Source of the DNA: a virus
Length of the DNA stretch: 20,456 nt
Reading direction: 5' to 3' (one strand)
Virus record (IMG/VR): IMGVR_UViG_3300029954_000089
Location: 1 to 20,456 of that record
The notes below the pieces were generated by a model. It saw nothing but the letters and a program-made list of their open reading frames with translations. It ran no database searches and had not been told where the DNA came from. This document shows positions 1,734 to 19,794 of the stretch, one piece after another. Numbering within the stretch: the first letter of the stretch is position 1; each line of letters begins with the position of its first letter. A program made the translations under genes and the position numbers.

Positions 1734-1762
1734 GGCATACTTTATGAACCGGAAAATGTCAA
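1734..1762 (-). promoter_or_regulatory. Possible leaderless promoter of the HNH gene
   Basis: On the minus strand a perfect TTGACA (complement of 1757-1762) is followed after 17 bases by TATGCC (complement of 1734-1739). Transcription would begin about seven bases later, at the A of the HNH ATG. The -10 match is weak (it lacks the final T). The absence of a Shine-Dalgarno sequence fits leaderless initiation, which is common in actinobacteria. Confidence 0.35.
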
Positions 1763-2910
1763 CTTCCAGTCCACGTGTCCGTGACCGAAAGCTGGTCCCC
1801 ACTCGCCGCCAACGTGGCGCTCGTGATGGTCGCCTCCGACATCAGTGTGGCCGCACCTCCCGGAGGACCTCCGACCGGACCCATCGAAACGAAGGTCGCG
1901 ATGGTGACCACCGCCAGCGAGTAGGTGTCCGAGCCGTTGCCGGTGAATGAGCCCACAATCGTCCAGGTCACCGGTGTGGTGCTCTGGGTGTTGGCGTAGG
2001 CGCAAATCTTGCGGTTCAGGCCACCAGCGGAGTGCCAGTTCTCGCCGGTCAGGGCGGTGTCAGACACGTTGCCGTAGGCCGTGGCCGACAGCCCCATGTA
2101 CCAGGCCGAGGGAATGCCCCCGTCCTCGATGGAGTAGTAGTACCCCGCCGAGGGAGCTGTGGCCGCTGTGACTGCTCCAGGCGTGCCCACCGTGTACCAA
2201 CGGTCGATGGTGAACACCGGCGTGGTGCCGGAGGTGTGGGAGATGATGTGGCCGTACACCATCGGCCCTGTCGCGGTCTGCAGGACGTGAATCCGGCAGC
2301 CCGCGTACTGGTTTGCCGTCACCGAGGTGACCGCAGCCGACGTGGCTGTGGTGGATGTGGCCGAGGACAGCGTGCCGGTGAACCCGACCAGGCCACCTCC
2401 CATCATGTTCGACTGCAGCAGTCGACCGACGTTGGAAATCAACGCCTTCGGGGGTGCCAGGAAGGGCGCGACTCCCGGAGGAGTGATGCTCCAGTGGGAC
2501 TCTTCGGCTCCCTCGAGTTCCGAGTCAGTGAACTGCGGCACTTCGTAGTGCCGGGCGAGCATCTCGCCGAAGGCCTGGTTGCTGGACCAGACCCAGAGCG
2601 GGTCGTCCTGCGCCTGGCTCATCCATCCACCGGAGGGGTGGACGACAGCCAGGTAGGCCTCCTGCTTGCCGTGGCCGATGTCCTCGAACCGCGTGATCCC
2701 TTGCCTGTCAGGCGGCAGGTAGGGGCTGTGGGCATCCACGATGTGCTTCTTGGCGTCTGCCACATCGAACGCCGGGTCGAAGTCGTAAGCGAGGTCGCCC
2801 TGGTCGTTAATGGGGTAGGTGTCCGGGATGCTGATGGTTGTGATGTGCGGGATTCCGTCCTTCACCGGGACATTTGCCCTGGGGGCCGGGTTACCGAGCT
2901 TGACTAGCAT
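1759..2910 (-). CDS. Putative structural (head or tail) protein, 383 aa
   Basis: ATG 2908-2910 has an AAGGAG at five bases spacing; longer readings back to 3156 run across the preceding gene and are rejected. The N-terminal third is acidic and globular (a DTYPINDQGDLAYDFDPAFD segment). The C-terminal half is rich in Thr, Ser, Ala and Gly and looks like beta-rich virion decoration or tail-type sequence, without collagen repeats. It lies two genes after the major capsid protein in the same direction, so it may be a head decoration, head-tail or tail protein. I do not recognise a named family. Its last codons contain the TTGACA assigned to the HNH promoter. Confidence 0.75.
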   Translation of the reverse strand: MLVKLGNPAPRANVPVKDGIPHITTISIPDTYPINDQGDLAYDFDPAFDVADAKKHIVDAHSPYLPPDRQGITRFEDIGHGKQEAYLAVVHPSGGWMSQAQDDPLWVWSSNQAFGEMLARHYEVPQFTDSELEGAEESHWSITPPGVAPFLAPPKALISNVGRLLQSNMMGGGLVGFTGTLSSATSTTATSAAVTSVTANQYAGCRIHVLQTATGPMVYGHIISHTSGTTPVFTIDRWYTVGTPGAVTAATAPSAGYYYSIEDGGIPSAWYMGLSATAYGNVSDTALTGENWHSAGGLNRKICAYANTQSTTPVTWTIVGSFTGNGSDTYSLAVVTIATFVSMGPVGGPPGGAATLMSEATITSATLAASGDQLSVTDTWTGS

Positions 2911-3220
2911 TGCGACTCCTTGTCTTGAGAGGTGCTTCGAGAGGAACTGGATGGCCGCGCTCATCGTGGCGGCACAACTGGGGCTTTTCTTCGATGGGAT
3001 AGGACGTGCCTGCCGCATAGGCCAGGGCTCCCGAATCCACCCAGTAGAGGCGCTCTGTGGCAACCTCGCTGGGTCTGTCGTCGGGAGGCTCAGGCTGCAC
3101 GTTGGGCCATGAGAGCAATCTGAATGGCTCGTTGTGCTTGAGGATGGCGATGCCATGAGGAGGTTGAGCCTCCACTACCACCCGAAACTTCCCTGTTGGG
3201 GGGAGTCCCTCTACTGGCAT
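2891..3220 (-). CDS. Small protein after the capsid gene (109 aa), unknown
   Basis: ATG 3218-3220 has a very strong Shine-Dalgarno sequence (AGAGGAGGTG) just upstream. The 3' end overlaps the next gene by 20 bp. The product is hydrophilic: the N-terminal half (residues about 10-65) looks ordered and the C-terminus is basic and probably disordered. There is no transmembrane segment and no Cys cluster. The position between the major capsid protein and a structural protein fits a head accessory or head-tail connector role, but no family is recognised. Confidence 0.7.
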   Translation of the reverse strand: MPVEGLPPTGKFRVVVEAQPPHGIAILKHNEPFRLLSWPNVQPEPPDDRPSEVATERLYWVDSGALAYAAGTSYPIEEKPQLCRHDERGHPVPLEAPLKTRSRNASQAR

Positions 3221-13050: not shown

Positions 13051-13080
13051 TCGCGCCTCTAAGGCGCGACTGCTAAAGGG
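13051..13080 (-). promoter_or_regulatory. Predicted -1 ribosomal frameshift signal at the end of the portal gene
   Basis: On the minus strand the portal frame reads TAC CCT TTA; the heptamer CCCTTTA (complement of 13074-13080) has the exact X XXY YYZ phase required. After a 4-base spacer there is an 8-bp GC-rich hairpin (TCGCGCCT, 13062-13069, with AGGCGCGA, 13051-13058) whose three-base loop is the portal stop TAG (13059-13061). Slipping back one base gives a frame open through the hairpin into the MuF gene: portal residues 1-1116, 20 linking residues, then the MuF protein. TTA is an uncommon Leu codon in such GC-rich genes, suggesting the site is selected. Confidence 0.6.
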
Positions 13081-16000
13081 TAGGTCGGACCTCGGTTCTC
13101 ATCAGAGAATCCGGCCAGGTGAATGGGCGACAGGACCGGCTGCTCGCACTCGGTGCACATCGCCAGGTTGTGACCCTTGAAAGCGTGGGGACGAGGGGTG
13201 ACCGGCTCGGTCACCTGGATCGTCACCGTCTTGGTCGGCGCCGCGCCGGTGGAGGGACCGCCGACGATCTGCTTGACGGTGCGGGGCCGCTCGGGTCCGG
13301 TGTGCGCTAGTTCGCGCAGCTCGAGACCGAGCAGAGTCCGACGCTCCGGGTCCTCCAATGCAAAGTCGACCAACTGGAGAGCCCGGCTGCTCTTCTTCGA
13401 GCCGTGCATCTCGGTTTCCCAGTCGCCATGAGCCGTGGCCGGGGTAGCGACGTAAGCGTCGATGGTTCCCCGACCAGCGTGACGATGGGCCAGTGTGCGG
13501 TGGTAGCCGTCGGCGATGCGCAGCTTGTCGTCGGCCGGCGAATTCACGAGCACCACGGGGTCCATGTGGATACCCGAGCGGATCTGCTTGGCCATCGAGG
13601 CCACCTTGACGTCGTCGCGCGCCCCACCGGGACGGCGCTCCATCTGGATGCTGTCGAGGGGGACCTTCTTACGTGTCCAGGCGGCGTCATGCACCCAGCT
13701 AAGGGTGCGACGGGGGTAGGAGCGAGCTAGGTAGCCGTGCACCTTGTCGGCAATGTCCGTTGACTTGTCCCAGTTGATGGCCCTGCGGCGCTCGGCTATT
13801 TGGCGAGCTCGGTATTCAAGCTGAGCCCATTCGGGAGAACGCGACGGAGCCGTAGAAGGTGGGTAGCCCTGAGTCGACGGGCCTTCGCCCTCTTCTCCGA
13901 GGGGAGCAGTCTCGATGGACTCCGCGGGGCTGACAAGGTCCGCTATGTCGAGCAGGTCCTGCACGTCCTTCGGGGTGAGGATGCCTGCATCGACCGCCTT
14001 GTCCGCCGCGAGAGGGGCAAAGATGGTCGGGCTCTGCAAGGCCACGACCTCGGAGACGTCAAACCAGCCCACCTCGTTACCCAGCCGGGGAGCTAGGTGG
14101 ACGTTGATGAGGTCCTCCATTTCACCTATAAAGGAGGACATGGTTATAGTCCAGAAGTTTCTATATTCTGTGTTATGTTCCCAATATGTACCGAGGTAAG
14201 TGTGTCCGTCTGGCACCATAAGGCCCACGGTTGCGTCTATTCCTGCTGGCTCTATGGACTTGACCTTTTCCCACATAAGTCCTGGCCACAGGTTCTTAGC
14301 ACGCCACGTCCGACGATTCTGTCTGCCCGGCATAGCAGCAACTTCCCGCGCCCGCTTAACAGCCTCGGCCTTAGCCGGAATCCCAATCATATCGCAAAAG
14401 CGGACAACCTCGTCGGGGTTCTGACAGATAAGGTGATAGGACTCAAAGATACGGTCTCCCATATAAGGGAGGCCGCCCTTGGAGTGTTGGTGGATGATCC
14501 GCGAGCCGATTCCGAACCGAAGGAGTAGCTCCTGAACGTCGCGAACCAGATCGTCAGAGATCGAGACCAGGGTGATCGCTGCTCGGGCGTAGGACGTACG
14601 GCCACCGTAAGTCGCGGGCTTTGAGACGCCAGCACAACCGTCGGCCGCATAAAGCGCCTGCAGGAACGCCACCTGCACTTCTTGCCGCGCAGCGAACACA
14701 GCTGGGGGGACGTGTTTGTCCCGCGCCTTGACGCCGAGCAGGCCGTTGTCCTCGAGCAGCTTGCGCACCACACCGCCGGAGACGCCCCACTGGTCGCAAG
14801 CTCCCTCGCGGGTCTTGTACTGCCGGACGCTGTCTCCGAGGGTCTCCACGGCCCTGGTGAAGGCCTCCACGTCAGGCCCCAAGGGGCTCGTGAGCGTGAT
14901 AGCAGTCCCAGTGGAGCATCCGTCGCCGACTATGGCCCCGAGCACAGCAGCTTCCTCAACCGTCAGGGGTCCGTCGCCCTCATATGGGAGCTCGGTCGGC
15001 ACCGCGACAAGGTCGCCGGGCTTGAGTTCGCCGATGGGCGTCCAGCCCTTGACTTCGACCCCAGCTTCGCCACGCGGCACCTTTGGCTCCTCGCCTACCG
15101 CAGGACGGCCGGGAGACCCACGCTTCACGTTCCTCACCGCGGTGTAGGTGGCGGCGTAGAGAGGATGCCTGTCGTTCGCCATGATCCGACGCCCGGACTC
15201 GGTTGTCACTGCATAGGTGGGCTCGACTTTGTTCCAATGGGCGTAGGCTTCGACCCTCTTGATTTGTTCGTATGGCGTCGTGGTAAGCACGTCGAAAGTC
15301 TTACCGACTAGGTCCTTAGCCTGGTATCTTTCACCATTAGCGAGCCGCACATATTCGTTAGCTTTCAAACAATCCGCGTTTGCGTAGGTCCTCTGGCTCG
15401 CGTTGCCTATTAGGCTTTCCGGCACCCCCAACGCCACAGTGACGTCGATCTTGGCTTGCTGCCACATCTGGAGCAGCTGAGCGTCGACCGGCCGGGTACC
15501 GATCTGCTGCACCTGCACCTGCGGAATGCGCTGGTCCTTGTCAGACAGCTCGGCCTCACCGAAGATGGTCTTGCCGGCATTGTCGACGCCAGTGAACTCG
15601 GTCAGGAACTGCTCCTGCCAGGCACGGCGCATCTCCGGCTCCTCGAAGGGCGGCGAGATGACCATGTGAGCGGCAGTCAGGCCATTCTTCAACAGGCCGT
15701 TCATGAACCGCTCGATGCCGACCTGCATCGAGATGGCGCTGCGGGCGGACTCGAGAGGTGACTCCGGCTGGCGCCAGTCACGCAAGGACGGACGCCATCC
15801 GTACATGACGTTCTCGTTCTGCAGCTCGATGATGCCGTAGGGAGTCTGGTACTGGAAGCTGTCCCACCACCTGTCGCCGCCCATGGAGGGGACTGGGGTG
15901 AGGCAGGGCGACACGAGAGGCCAGAGCCCAATGACACGGTTCTGCGTGTCGAGCTGCGTCTCCCAGCCCACCTTGCCGGTCACTATGTACTGACAGACGG

Positions 16001-16421
16001 TCCAGGCCCAGAGAGCGCGAGCGGTGGTGCGGGAATTCGGGCTGCCGGGGGGCGGTCCGAGCATGTACGCGAGGGGGCACTTCAGAGTAGACGTGTTCGG
16101 GTTCCGAGCACTCTTGCCAGCCATGAAGGGGAGGGCGGCCAGCGTCTCGGCAATGGTGCGCACGCAGCGCATCACCCACAGCGACTGGTAGTAAGCCTCA
16201 ACAGAGGACGCCCCGTCCCAGTGGAGAGCGAGTGGTTGACCCGGAGAGGCAAAGGTGATGTTCGCTGTACCGGCGACTACCCCGTTCCTGGCATTGCGGC
16301 GCCCGAGAGGGATGTTGTCCACGATGTTGCCCGTGGGCCGCTGGCCCATCCCAGGCAACGTGCGCCCGGAAGTGGTGGTCTGCGGCATGGCACGCGTCGC
16401 GATGCGGTCGAGCACGCTCAT
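13059..16421 (-). CDS. Portal protein with intein and C-terminal ParB-like domain (1120-aa precursor)
   Basis: The portal ring is the DNA gate of the head. Residues 1-350 and 751-830 are the HK97/phage-type portal core (QSLWVMRCVRTIAETLA near 79-95, GVPESLIGNASQRTYANAD before the intein, TEYRNFWTIT after it). Residues 351-750 are an intein whose removal leaves about 720 residues. After a Pro/Ser linker, residues about 908-1010 form a ParB/sulfiredoxin-like domain with VPLDSI (920-925) and IADGYHRTLAHR (969-980). The tail has C1089-x2-C1092 and a later His. The start is ATG 16419-16421, overlapping the upstream stop (ATGA), with GGAG eight bases before. The gene ends in a predicted frameshift signal into MuF. 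Confidence 0.92.
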   Translation of the reverse strand: MSVLDRIATRAMPQTTTSGRTLPGMGQRPTGNIVDNIPLGRRNARNGVVAGTANITFASPGQPLALHWDGASSVEAYYQSLWVMRCVRTIAETLAALPFMAGKSARNPNTSTLKCPLAYMLGPPPGSPNSRTTARALWAWTVCQYIVTGKVGWETQLDTQNRVIGLWPLVSPCLTPVPSMGGDRWWDSFQYQTPYGIIELQNENVMYGWRPSLRDWRQPESPLESARSAISMQVGIERFMNGLLKNGLTAAHMVISPPFEEPEMRRAWQEQFLTEFTGVDNAGKTIFGEAELSDKDQRIPQVQVQQIGTRPVDAQLLQMWQQAKIDVTVALGVPESLIGNASQRTYANADCLKANEYVRLANGERYQAKDLVGKTFDVLTTTPYEQIKRVEAYAHWNKVEPTYAVTTESGRRIMANDRHPLYAATYTAVRNVKRGSPGRPAVGEEPKVPRGEAGVEVKGWTPIGELKPGDLVAVPTELPYEGDGPLTVEEAAVLGAIVGDGCSTGTAITLTSPLGPDVEAFTRAVETLGDSVRQYKTREGACDQWGVSGGVVRKLLEDNGLLGVKARDKHVPPAVFAARQEVQVAFLQALYAADGCAGVSKPATYGGRTSYARAAITLVSISDDLVRDVQELLLRFGIGSRIIHQHSKGGLPYMGDRIFESYHLICQNPDEVVRFCDMIGIPAKAEAVKRAREVAAMPGRQNRRTWRAKNLWPGLMWEKVKSIEPAGIDATVGLMVPDGHTYLGTYWEHNTEYRNFWTITMSSFIGEMEDLINVHLAPRLGNEVGWFDVSEVVALQSPTIFAPLAADKAVDAGILTPKDVQDLLDIADLVSPAESIETAPLGEEGEGPSTQGYPPSTAPSRSPEWAQLEYRARQIAERRRAINWDKSTDIADKVHGYLARSYPRRTLSWVHDAAWTRKKVPLDSIQMERRPGGARDDVKVASMAKQIRSGIHMDPVVLVNSPADDKLRIADGYHRTLAHRHAGRGTIDAYVATPATAHGDWETEMHGSKKSSRALQLVDFALEDPERRTLLGLELRELAHTGPERPRTVKQIVGGPSTGAAPTKTVTIQVTEPVTPRPHAFKGHNLAMCTECEQPVLSPIHLAGFSDENRGPTYPLAVAP
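14172..15371 (-). mobile_element. Portal intein with LAGLIDADG homing endonuclease (400 aa)
   Basis: The boundaries are clear. Cys (complement of 15369-15371) is the first residue, block B carries NDRHP (intein residues 67-71), and the C-terminus is HTYLGTYWEHN followed by Thr as the +1 residue, with His-Asn as the penultimate and last residues. The two LAGLIDADG motifs are VLGAIVGDG (143-151) and LQALYAADG (237-245). So this is a full-length mobile intein able to cut intein-free portal alleles. It interrupts the conserved ANAD/TEYRNF segment. Its ends, especially the C-terminal 30 codons, are richer in A/T and in codons such as ATA, AGA and TTT than the rest of the gene. Confidence 0.93.
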
Positions 16422-16609
16422 AGCTTCGGCTCCGGTACCGGGAGCTTGTCCCAACAGGGCACGCACACGAACGACGGGCCTGTCGGAGGAGCTCCCTTAG
16501 CTCTGATCCGGCCCTCGCGTGTCAAGGTCTTACAGATGGCGCATTGCTTCGGGTGACCAGCACGCACGCGCCGATAGTGCTTTCGCTGGCGCGTGGAGAC
16601 GGTAGTCAC
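16418..16609 (-). CDS. Small four-cysteine zinc-finger protein (63 aa)
   Basis: GTG 16607-16609 overlaps the upstream stop (GTGA); its stop overlaps the portal ATG. The product starts with a basic helix (RQRKHYRRVRAG) followed by CAIC and FVCVPC, a C-x2-C ... C-x2-C zinc knuckle spaced by about 24 residues. It is a likely nucleic-acid-binding protein. Its position between terminase and portal is where some phages carry small HNH nucleases, but no HNH residues are present here. Function unknown. Confidence 0.75.
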   Translation of the reverse strand: MTTVSTRQRKHYRRVRAGHPKQCAICKTLTREGRIRAKGAPPTGPSFVCVPCWDKLPVPEPKL

Positions 16610-17036: not shown

Positions 17037-17236
17037 GGTGTGGGGCGCTCGATTTCAATCCTGAGTCCGTCACCAGTAACGGCAATCACCTTGTTCGGGA
17101 GGCTGCTAGCGTCGCCCCAGCAGTCAAGTAGGTGATGTGCAGTCTCCGCGTTAGTTCCTGACGGCAAGTGAAGAATGATGACGTCATCGGGGCGGACTTC
17201 AGCAACCTGGATTCGCTCAATCTTCGGGAGTCTCAT
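17033..17236 (-). CDS. Small conserved-type phage protein after terminase (67 aa)
   Basis: ATG 17234-17236 overlaps the terminase stop (ATGA), so it is coupled to terminase translation. The product (MRLPKIERIQVAEVRPDDVI...) alternates short strands and one helix: VRPDDVIILHL, then AETAHHLLDCW, then KVIAVTGDGLRIEI. Similar small alpha/beta proteins with a RPGDV.V.. pattern occur in many actinobacteriophages near the terminase. Function unknown. A longer reading to 17320 lies inside the terminase gene and is rejected. Confidence 0.7.
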   Translation of the reverse strand: MRLPKIERIQVAEVRPDDVIILHLPSGTNAETAHHLLDCWGDASSLPNKVIAVTGDGLRIEIERPTP

Positions 17237-19794
17237 GAAGCAGAGCCTACGACTTGGTTCGCCCGACGTCCCACTTTGCCAGCGAAGGTCATGCGCGCGC
17301 GACGCACCTCCCAGAGACATGCCTGGATAACGGCATCAGCGGAGTCAGTCGAACGGTGGATTCGAGCCTTGATTTCCTCCTTGGATTCGACCTGAATCTT
17401 CCCTCCACGAGAGATTTTCCAGCGCACGGCCGTCAGGTCGCCTACCATCAAGTCGTCGTCAGGTAGAGCGAGCATTGCACCCGCGGCCGGGTCGAGAAGG
17501 TCACGGAGGTACCACCAGGCGGCGGCTCGACAATTCCTTGCGACCGTTGACTTAGACCGATAGGCCCCAGTTGAAGTTTCCATCGTGTAGACGTAGGAGC
17601 CGCCATGCCGGGACGCAGGAATGACATCAATGCTGACGACATCGTTAGTCGGTATCTGGCGGGCGAGTCCCTGCACTCGCTGAGCAAGCGTTACGGGGTC
17701 GACCGGGACGTGCCACGGCGAGTTTTGCGAGAACACAACATCGGTCCACGGAATCAGGCCGAGGCCGCGTTGCTCTTGCGTTCCCAAGTAGCCGACCCGG
17801 TCGGACTCGTTGACAACTACTTGGCCGGTGAGTCTGCCAAAGCCCTGGGCAGGCGACTCGGACTGGCCGAACGCGTCGTAACACGTACCCTGTGCCAGCA
17901 GGGTGTAGCCCTCAGAGCCAACACCGAAGCCAACCGGCTGCGATCCGAGCGGATGACCGAAGCCGAGCATCGCGCTCGAACGGCCATGTGGGCGGACGGC
18001 TGGAACACGCCAATCAGCGTGCCGTCCTTCGTCCCTAAGAACATTGTTGGTCTTCGTCGGGCTGCTCTCACTCGACAGATCACCTTGTCCAAGCAACTCC
18101 CAGACGAGTTGCGGGTTCGAGCTCTGTTGCCCCCGGCCTGGGGGGTAGAGCAACTGCCCGTTGACCGTTACAACCTCGACTTCGCCCACGGGACGGTCGC
18201 CGTGGAAGTTCACAGCGCCGCTTACCATCCGTTCTGGTTCAAACAACATGCGAGCCGCGCCGTAGACCTCGCTGAGCGTGGGTGGCACCTGGCCTATCTC
18301 TGGCTGACCAAAGGACATGCCCTGTCCGAACGAGGCGTCGCAGAGCTTGTCGCCCACGCTGAGCGCCTGGACAGGGACCCAGCCCCCGAGCGTCAGTACA
18401 TTGTGATTCGGGGTTGCGGTGAAGTCATCTCCACCGGCCGTCTTGACCCGGTAGAGCGGACCATCGTGCCAGCTTCTCCAGATTCGCCGTAGCTGACCGA
18501 TAGGAGCGACTCGAGCATCGCCTGTCAGGCAATTGAGAAAACGGTGCTCCCCGGTCCTGTCCGTACGGTCCGTCGCCTCCGAAGCATTGAACGGAATGGC
18601 CCTGCGACCATGCTCCTGCCGCACCATGTCAAAGACGCCGGCTCCGACCCCGATGGTGTCAACGACAGCGCGAGCACCCTGGTGAGCATGGAGAGCCGCG
18701 TTGACCCACCCGGCCGTGATGGTCGTGTCGTCCCAGTTGTGGTGCTCGAGTCGAGTGACAACGTGGCCTGCCTTGTAGGCAAGGACGGTTTCGTCGTCAC
18801 CCTCTCGTGCAACGTCAACTCCGAGGTCCGTGTATTTCTCGATTGGTGACCCGTCGTCTACCCATTCCCGGTAGCGGTCCTGTGCCGCTTCGACCCACGC
18901 GAGCGGGATGACGCAGTTGCCCTCAGAACCCTTGAACTCACCGAGCACCCTGTTGTTGTAGAGCTGGCTCTGCGCCCCCCACTGCTTCTTGCGCTTCTCG
19001 GCCCAGTCCTCAGTGATGCGGCCAGCTGCGATGGCCTCCTTGAGGGTGATATGTCTGGTGCTCCAGTCCTCCAGACCAGGACGGTGCGCGTGAATATCGT
19101 AGAACCGTCCCTCGGGATCGCCAGGTGTGCTCTGGGCTAGGCCGAAGGCCTCGGGGAGTGTGCCGATCTTGTTGCTCGATCCAGCGAAAGCACCCTCGGC
19201 GGCGTCGAAGATGCGGGCGTCGATGGCTTTGGACTCGTCGAAGATATAGAGCAGGCAGACGGCGTGGGCGCCCTCGACGAGAGCAGGGTCCGAGGCAGCG
19301 ACAGCGAAGGCCTCGCCGTTGTCGAGCTTGAGCGCAAGGTCGAGGAGCTGTGAACTGTTGAAAGGCTTGAGACCGAGGACCTCGAATTTGATGCGGCGCG
19401 CCCAACGGTGAATCTCCGGCCAGAGGTACTTTTCGAGTTGGCGCCACGCGCCGGCGGTCGTCAGCACCTTCCAGTCGTAGCCAGCCAACTCTCGGGTGGT
19501 GGCGAACCACAAAGCCGCCATCGAGTTGGTTGTGGTCTTGCCTGTGCCGTGGCCACTGCGGACTGCGACCCTGCCGGTCTTGACAAGCTCGTCGAGCGTC
19601 CCCTCTTGGTAGGTGGTCAGGCCCTGGCCTTCGGGCCACGCAATGCATTCGCGTGCCCACAAAACGGGGTTGTACTCCCACCGCTTGATTCGAAGGCGAT
19701 TGACCTCGCGGAGCCGCAGTTCGGTTTCAGCTAGACGGCGCTGCAGCTCCGCGGGGGCGTCGATCCGGGTCGGCAACTGCTGGCGAGGGGACAC
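17233..19794 (-). CDS. terL: Large terminase subunit with intein (853-aa precursor)
   Basis: The DNA packaging motor and nuclease. The ATPase part has Walker A RSGHGTGKT (79-87) and Walker B LLYIFDE (181-187). The nuclease part has GVDVAR (D327), VVDTIG (D379) and STDSADAV (816-823) as the three acidic sites of the RNase H-like fold. Residues 422-754 are an intein, inserted between RFLN and CRAAAWWYLRDLLD in the nuclease domain; the mature enzyme would be 520 residues, normal for the family. The start is GTG 19792-19794 with no strong Shine-Dalgarno sequence; no other start is available upstream before a stop. A complete ORF for an endonuclease-like protein lies on the opposite strand within the intein. 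Confidence 0.93.
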   Translation of the reverse strand: MSPRQQLPTRIDAPAELQRRLAETELRLREVNRLRIKRWEYNPVLWARECIAWPEGQGLTTYQEGTLDELVKTGRVAVRSGHGTGKTTTNSMAALWFATTRELAGYDWKVLTTAGAWRQLEKYLWPEIHRWARRIKFEVLGLKPFNSSQLLDLALKLDNGEAFAVAASDPALVEGAHAVCLLYIFDESKAIDARIFDAAEGAFAGSSNKIGTLPEAFGLAQSTPGDPEGRFYDIHAHRPGLEDWSTRHITLKEAIAAGRITEDWAEKRKKQWGAQSQLYNNRVLGEFKGSEGNCVIPLAWVEAAQDRYREWVDDGSPIEKYTDLGVDVAREGDDETVLAYKAGHVVTRLEHHNWDDTTITAGWVNAALHAHQGARAVVDTIGVGAGVFDMVRQEHGRRAIPFNASEATDRTDRTGEHRFLNCLTGDARVAPIGQLRRIWRSWHDGPLYRVKTAGGDDFTATPNHNVLTLGGWVPVQALSVGDKLCDASFGQGMSFGQPEIGQVPPTLSEVYGAARMLFEPERMVSGAVNFHGDRPVGEVEVVTVNGQLLYPPGRGQQSSNPQLVWELLGQGDLSSESSPTKTNNVLRDEGRHADWRVPAVRPHGRSSAMLGFGHPLGSQPVGFGVGSEGYTLLAQGTCYDAFGQSESPAQGFGRLTGQVVVNESDRVGYLGTQEQRGLGLIPWTDVVFSQNSPWHVPVDPVTLAQRVQGLARQIPTNDVVSIDVIPASRHGGSYVYTMETSTGAYRSKSTVARNCRAAAWWYLRDLLDPAAGAMLALPDDDLMVGDLTAVRWKISRGGKIQVESKEEIKARIHRSTDSADAVIQACLWEVRRARMTFAGKVGRRANQVVGSAS
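17533..18531 (-). mobile_element. Terminase intein (333 aa) lacking a sense-strand LAGLIDADG motif
   Basis: The intein starts at Cys422 (CLTGDARV, block A) and has TPNHNVL (461-467) as block B with T-x2-H. It ends VYTMETSTGAYRSKSTVARN with Asn754 followed by Cys755. The penultimate residue is Arg, not the usual His. The middle holds PTLSEVY and VNFHGDRPVGEVEVV, a pattern I recall from phage Hint/intein sequences, but no LAGLIDADG or HNH motif. Its coding DNA is shared with an antisense ORF (17605-18492) that looks like the homing nuclease of this element. Confidence 0.88.
17605..18492 (+). CDS. Antisense Vsr/EDxHD-like homing endonuclease candidate inside the terminase intein (295 aa)
   Basis: ATG 17605-17607 has TAGGAG five bases upstream, a good Shine-Dalgarno sequence on the plus strand. 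The product has two similar helix-turn-helix units, each opening with YLAGES (residues 18-23 and 72-77). The nuclease-like part has NLDFAHG (190-196; D192), VAVEVHSAAYHP (198-209; E201, H203, H208) and GWHLAYLWL (226-234). This strand order and the D/E/H pattern resemble Vsr-like EDxHD homing enzymes such as I-Bth0305I. The ORF lies entirely within the intein (72 bp from one end, 39 bp from the other) and is codon-aligned with the intein frame. Codon-aligned antisense frames often stay open by chance in GC-rich DNA; the motifs and ribosome site argue against that here. Confidence 0.7.
   Translation: MPGRRNDINADDIVSRYLAGESLHSLSKRYGVDRDVPRRVLREHNIGPRNQAEAALLLRSQVADPVGLVDNYLAGESAKALGRRLGLAERVVTRTLCQQGVALRANTEANRLRSERMTEAEHRARTAMWADGWNTPISVPSFVPKNIVGLRRAALTRQITLSKQLPDELRVRALLPPAWGVEQLPVDRYNLDFAHGTVAVEVHSAAYHPFWFKQHASRAVDLAERGWHLAYLWLTKGHALSERGVAELVAHAERLDRDPAPERQYIVIRGCGEVISTGRLDPVERTIVPASPDSP

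Follow-up and report, generated by a model that had tools for sequence, protein, structure and literature searches.

A phage terminase intein with a probable homing endonuclease gene encoded antisense within it, representative of a family of tailed-phage elements

The terminase gene of the viral record IMGVR_UViG_3300029954_000089 raises the question of whether one segment of DNA can serve two genes, one strand encoding a splicing protein and the opposite strand a homing nuclease, a layout proposed for this locus in an earlier, sequence-only reading. The DNA analyzed here (the window, positions 1 to 20,456 of the record, 20,456 nucleotides) carries a tailed-phage head module on its minus strand, encoding a methyltransferase, major head protein, protease, MuF, portal protein and terminase. 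The precursor of the terminase large subunit, TerL (17233-19794, minus strand), is an open reading frame of 853 codons with no internal stop, and its product (853 aa) matches the phrog_2 terminase, with Terminase_6C found only at an E value of 0.039. The frame contains a 333-residue intein (17533-18531, minus strand; terminase residues 422-754) that runs from Cys1 to Asn333 and is followed by a +1 Cys, between an N-extein (18532-19794, minus strand) and a C-extein (17233-17532, minus strand). The intact intein originally described, with Cys422, TPNH and Asn754-Cys755 in an open minus frame, is thus present. Its insertion site, FLN/CRAAAWW (the slash marks the junction), lies in the C-terminal part of TerL. 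After removal of the intein in silico, the terminase is 47-48% identical to the intein-free terminases of Streptomyces phage TurkishDelight and Actinoplanes phage phiAsp2, which align across the junction (FRN/VRSAAYW and FTN/TRSAAYW, respectively), as for an in-frame insertion at a conserved site in an otherwise intact host protein.

The intein displays the block A Cys/Ser/Ala1, block B TxxH (here TPNH, intein residues 40-43), C-terminal Asn and +1 Cys/Ser/Thr hallmarks. HMMs matched both the N-terminal splicing half (blocks A and B, residues 1-66; 18334-18531, minus strand) and the C-terminal half (blocks F/G, residues 279-333; 17533-17697, minus strand). AlphaFold predicted a confident splicing domain, with pLDDT values of ∼95 for the N-terminal half except its last few residues and mostly high values for the C-terminal half, climbing over residues 279-290. 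Between them, 148 residues (129-276; 17704-18147, minus strand) have pLDDT <50 and are predicted to be unstructured in the terminase frame. Foldseek analysis of the model returned inteins as the top matches to its Hint fold (best E value 1.3e-3, probability ∼1), and the best PDB matches include the Mtu RecA and Ssp DnaB inteins. A second intein, of 400 residues (14172-15371, minus strand), is located in the portal gene (13059-16466) and is conventional, with an in-frame LAGLIDADG_3 domain.

A gene for a protein of 295 aa (17605-18492, plus strand) lies wholly within the terminase intein. As the sequence-only reading had noted, it starts and ends inside the intein and has its own Shine-Dalgarno-like AGGAG (17595-17599, plus strand), which is the reverse complement of intein codons adjoining block F; the ATG start (17605-17607) is the reverse complement of CAT, the codon of the invariant intein His309 near block F. 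The product comprises two helix-turn-helix (HTH) units, at residues 10-43 (17632-17733, plus strand) and 65-98 (17797-17898, plus strand), each containing the sequence YLAGES (residues 17-22 and 72-77), and a nuclease domain at residues 147-257 (18043-18375, plus strand) of the Vsr/DUF559/I-Bth0305I-like type, and we regard it as the product of a probable homing endonuclease gene (HEG). Opposite the unstructured middle of the intein lie both HTH units and the beginning of the nuclease domain. At 18403-18414 the same letters encode the block B motif TPNH of the intein on the minus strand and VIRG of the antisense protein on the plus strand.

Used as a single query, the antisense protein matched HTH models only. 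A profile of its family matched the catalytic domain of I-Bth0305I (PDB ID: 3r3p, E value 2.2e-6, and 1.8e-5 in another search) and the endonuclease-like protein 3hrl (E value 1.3e-4) as well as resolvase-type HTHs, and Pfam matches among its relatives include MTES_1575, DUF559, Vsr and several HTH families, bearing out the suggested relationship to Vsr/EDxHD enzymes. The AlphaFold model (52 sequences, mean pLDDT 87.6) shows the helices of the two HTH units, followed after a linker by an alpha/beta domain bearing E168, D192 and E201. Foldseek against the PDB placed 3r3p third (E value 0.19, probability 0.82), and against viral models it returned endonucleases and DNA mismatch endonucleases. 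The nuclease-like core originally proposed was D192/E201/H203/H208; counted within the family, D192 (18178-18180) and E201 (18205-18207) proved invariant (52/52 each), whereas of the two histidines H208 occurs in most members (38/52) and H203 lacks conservation (9/52). The histidines of an EDxHD site are kept only in part, while E168 (18106-18108; 47/52) and Y189, N190 and R218 (52/52 each) belong to the conserved nuclease core.

Relatives of the antisense gene were found widely. Searches by tblastn returned 74 phage records with the window protein as query and 131 with a Gordonia homolog, and a pattern scan of IMG/VR yielded 184 relatives on viral contigs; scans of viral contigs with the single protein recovered near-identical copies only. 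Placement could be scored for 77 of the IMG/VR loci, and in 73 of these the HEG is intact, fully embedded and antisense in the same codon register, so that the frame is not often disrupted in related inteins; contig ends or a misplaced start account for the other four. HMMs of the two intein halves found both flanking the HEG, in the antisense frame, in 76/77. The same antisense placement and register were seen at all 19 loci with a host gene spanning the HEG (the window and 18 annotated regions) and at three Actinobacteria genome-contig loci from a profile search. A phylum search added four chromosomal loci in three more genomes, with the intein N-half opposite the HEG in 4/4 and the C-half in 3/4, the fourth lying at a contig end. 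Genome matches without intein halves (L121, L122, L123, L124 and L127) were excluded, being probably HTH-repeat proteins, and GE_vB_HIL (L024, an UNVERIFIED record with a broken HEG frame) was left out of the counts.

The phages that carry these inteins have hosts among Actinobacteria, Gammaproteobacteria and Helicobacter, and the genes that harbor them encode MuF/head proteins, portal-MuF fusions, VG15, minor capsid protein 2, TerL (the window and L087) and a dCMP deaminase (L006). MuF is the usual home of the family; the MuF gene of the window phage itself (12244-13014, minus strand) has just 256 codons, and no intein was seen in it. The dCMP deaminase case, in Virus Rctr197k (616-1968, APU88838.1), is annotated as a head morphogenesis protein while its exteins match dCMP deaminase, and its head label probably comes from the intein. 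When intein-bearing host proteins were scanned with PHROGs, phrog_15127 ("head protein") matched their intein region, and this model thus apparently incorporates the intein that houses the antisense HEG. In the annotation of PK2 the antisense ORF is a hypothetical.

Phylogenetic analysis placed the window element as sister to MuF elements of Gordonia phages (99/97), whereas L087, the second TerL element, branches elsewhere at a weakly supported position; the unit has therefore probably moved between host genes. Nuclease distances correlate with intein-half distances (Mantel r 0.36-0.45, P 0.001), as expected if the nuclease and the intein halves travel together, a correlation to which shared ancestry of the host phages could contribute. 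The sole exception found to placement antisense within an intein is a free-standing Acinetobacter form (phage IME285, L020, 449-1345; P1068, L112, 2501-3397), in which the nuclease gene is convergent with an intein-less MuF gene and overlaps its 3' end by a few bases. We considered whether this form might be ancestral and rejected the idea, as the tree nests the Acinetobacter copy within an embedded clade (98/86, 97/88). This nesting favors escape from an intein, with the caveat of a long branch and odd composition. The VIRG motif is missing from the IME285 copy.

These comparisons bear on whether the antisense product is a homing enzyme at all. A genuine DNA-binding nuclease housed in the intein for another purpose, such as regulation or attack on competitors, would fit the HTH-rich product and the existence of a free-standing relative. 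We consider this improbable, given the near-universal coupling to inteins, in several different host genes, the similarity to I-Bth0305I and the fact that even the free-standing copy adjoins a MuF gene that has no intein.

The anatomy of the elements is shared in detail. In the 72 loci where both ends could be defined, inteins are 268-363 residues long (median 316), the HEG start typically falls 60 nt in from the intein C end, and the HEG stop lies a median of 25.5 nt from the intein N end. In all 57 loci scored, the HEG start codon (50 ATG, 7 GTG) mirrors the block F His codon (CAT/CAC), and in 55 of the 57 a Shine-Dalgarno-like sequence mirrors the codons after this His, typically V-Y-N/D-L; the window element has both features, with their spacing shifted relative to its relatives. 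In the host frame, the mirror of the nuclease motif YNLDFA...VAVE reads GEVEVV...FHGD, just as the intein TPNH is mirrored as VIRG. Throughout, codon position 2 of the HEG faces codon position 2 of the host gene. It could be argued that the plus-strand gene is real while the minus-frame insert does not function as an intein and the terminase is simply interrupted, a view to which the penultimate residue of the window intein, Arg instead of His, lends some color. This seems very unlikely in light of the retention of Cys1, the block B His, the terminal Asn and a +1 Cys/Ser in inteins throughout the family, the intein folds that head the PDB matches of the model, and the strong host-frame constraint on the codons of the splicing halves described below.

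In this register, host codons TTA, CTA and TCA mirror as stops in the antisense frame, and vice versa. They make up only 1.1% of codons in the window genes, and the probability of meeting none in 295 codons is ∼0.035 in the window, so the length of the ORF here is by itself weak evidence. Another long antisense ORF in the window (2032-2907, plus strand, 291 aa) has no PHROG match and is probably spurious; the ORF opposite it (1759-3156) also lacks a PHROG match. Three mirror-stop codons (386, 615 and 647) interrupt the codon-aligned antisense frame of the portal intein. None of the first 18 embedded HEGs inspected, among them a Helicobacter prophage gene with a GC3 of 0.36, contains a TTA, CTA or TCA codon, and the chance of zero mirror-stop codons is ∼1e-9 to 1e-5 in several AT-richer genomes. 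The free-standing Acinetobacter copy contains 12 such codons in 299, the local genome background rate.

Selection was measured on relatives because copies of the window's own lineage are near-identical. In the intein middle, substitutions silent in the HEG that change the host protein occurred at 0.240 per site against 0.076 for the reverse class, when pairwise substitutions were pooled over related pairs; the corresponding pooled values were 0.091 and 0.206 in the N-terminal splicing half, where the host frame is constrained, and 0.018 and 0.331 outside the HEG. The pairs are partly related to each other, and among single pairs the near-identical L007/L027 runs opposite to the pooled trend. 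Host codon position 1 is the most variable in the intein middle of relatives. Since the rate classes swap between the middle and the N-terminal splicing half, constraint switches strand along the element: judged by these substitutions, the splicing halves show constraint on the host frame and the middle on the nuclease frame. Selection is thus not confined to the minus frame, the plus frame being under the stronger selection in the intein middle. The notion of a chance open frame, of the sort common opposite codon-aligned GC-rich genes and compatible with the rarity of mirror stops in the window and with its 291-aa ORF without homologs, can be dismissed with near certainty, as a homologous protein occupies the same antisense place in AT-rich phages and in unrelated host genes, with its start, Shine-Dalgarno sequence and catalytic motif conserved and its frame under selection. 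It is this comparison, through homology, conserved anatomy and selection, that is decisive for the reality of the gene, rather than its length.

We therefore consider it very probable that the locus is a mobile intein with its homing endonuclease gene on the strand opposite the splicing protein, codon position 2 facing position 2. The minus strand would give rise to a terminase precursor in which the two terminal parts of the intein form the splicing domain, and the middle would be a long unstructured loop, a literal mirror of the nuclease gene that needs mainly to be free of stops. Excision of the intein would restore the terminase. From the plus strand, an HTH-Vsr-like nuclease would be translated from its own Shine-Dalgarno sequence and start codon, both within the block F region, and would presumably cut intein-free alleles at the insertion site, with repair copying the whole element. 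The two-strand layout first proposed for the splicing protein and the nuclease-like gene is upheld, as far as sequence comparison can speak, by the anatomy, its conservation across host genes and phages, and segment-wise selection on each strand. Splicing and nuclease activity are predicted from knowledge of the families, and we infer cutting and homing from the position of the gene as well. Transcription of the HEG would have to proceed from the plus strand, for which promoter scans of the window found no promoter-like site.

Like the bifunctional LAGLIDADG inteins, of which the portal intein of the window is an example, the element would combine a splicing domain and a homing enzyme into one mobile unit in an essential phage gene. 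In those inteins the enzyme forms one domain of the intein polypeptide, whereas the window element encodes it in a gene of its own, on the opposite strand of the same DNA, and the intein middle is unstructured. Group I introns can carry homing genes antisense to the host gene; no dual coding is needed there, because the intron RNA is not translated. The same broad nuclease superfamily is tied to inteins in the fractured genes reportedly described by Dassa et al. in 2009, in which a free-standing Vsr-like endonuclease is said to lie between the halves of a split intein; in the window, by contrast, host gene and intein are both continuous, and the codons of the nuclease gene lie directly opposite those of the intein. 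The nuclease domain, matched by profile, is shared with the EDxHD (Vsr-like) homing endonuclease I-Bth0305I, an intron-encoded enzyme (PMC3943268), and in both it is joined to an extended DNA-binding part; the window gene differs in being antisense in an intein, in its partly kept histidines and in having HTH units as the DNA-binding part. In the ShiLan insertion a homing enzyme is likewise concealed in another frame of an uninterrupted phage gene, namely an out-of-frame, same-strand HNH endonuclease in a host-frame insert that is not an intein (PMC11855218, in which the word "antisense" does not occur); the window nuclease lies on the opposite strand, is Vsr-like instead of HNH, and is accompanied by genuine intein motifs. 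Papers on the phages Snoke, UPWr_S and vKMB36 note a MuF intein and, in the passages retrieved, do not mention the antisense gene. We found no description of an antisense intein nuclease in the searchable literature, although a preprint from 2025 on non-canonical inteins of actinophages (Gosselin et al., bioRxiv 2025.01.02.630785) may predate the present one.

It is likely that "antisense inteins" are widespread, previously undescribed mobile elements of tailed phages, in which each segment holds two genes, selection switches strand, the ribosome-binding site and start of the nuclease lie in a splicing-motif region, and the whole unit moves between MuF, terminase and dCMP-deaminase genes. They reveal many unannotated nucleases behind "head protein" annotations, and they offer a case in which both strands are coding over nearly 300 codons and in which many natural alleles are available for testing. 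The register permits a clean separation of the two functions, since replacing a host Leu codon with CTA or TTA, or a host Ser codon with TCA, leaves the terminase or MuF protein unaltered and introduces a stop in the nuclease. The arrangement shows how a homing gene can persist inside a protein-splicing element, where its expression could be uncoupled from that of the late structural gene.
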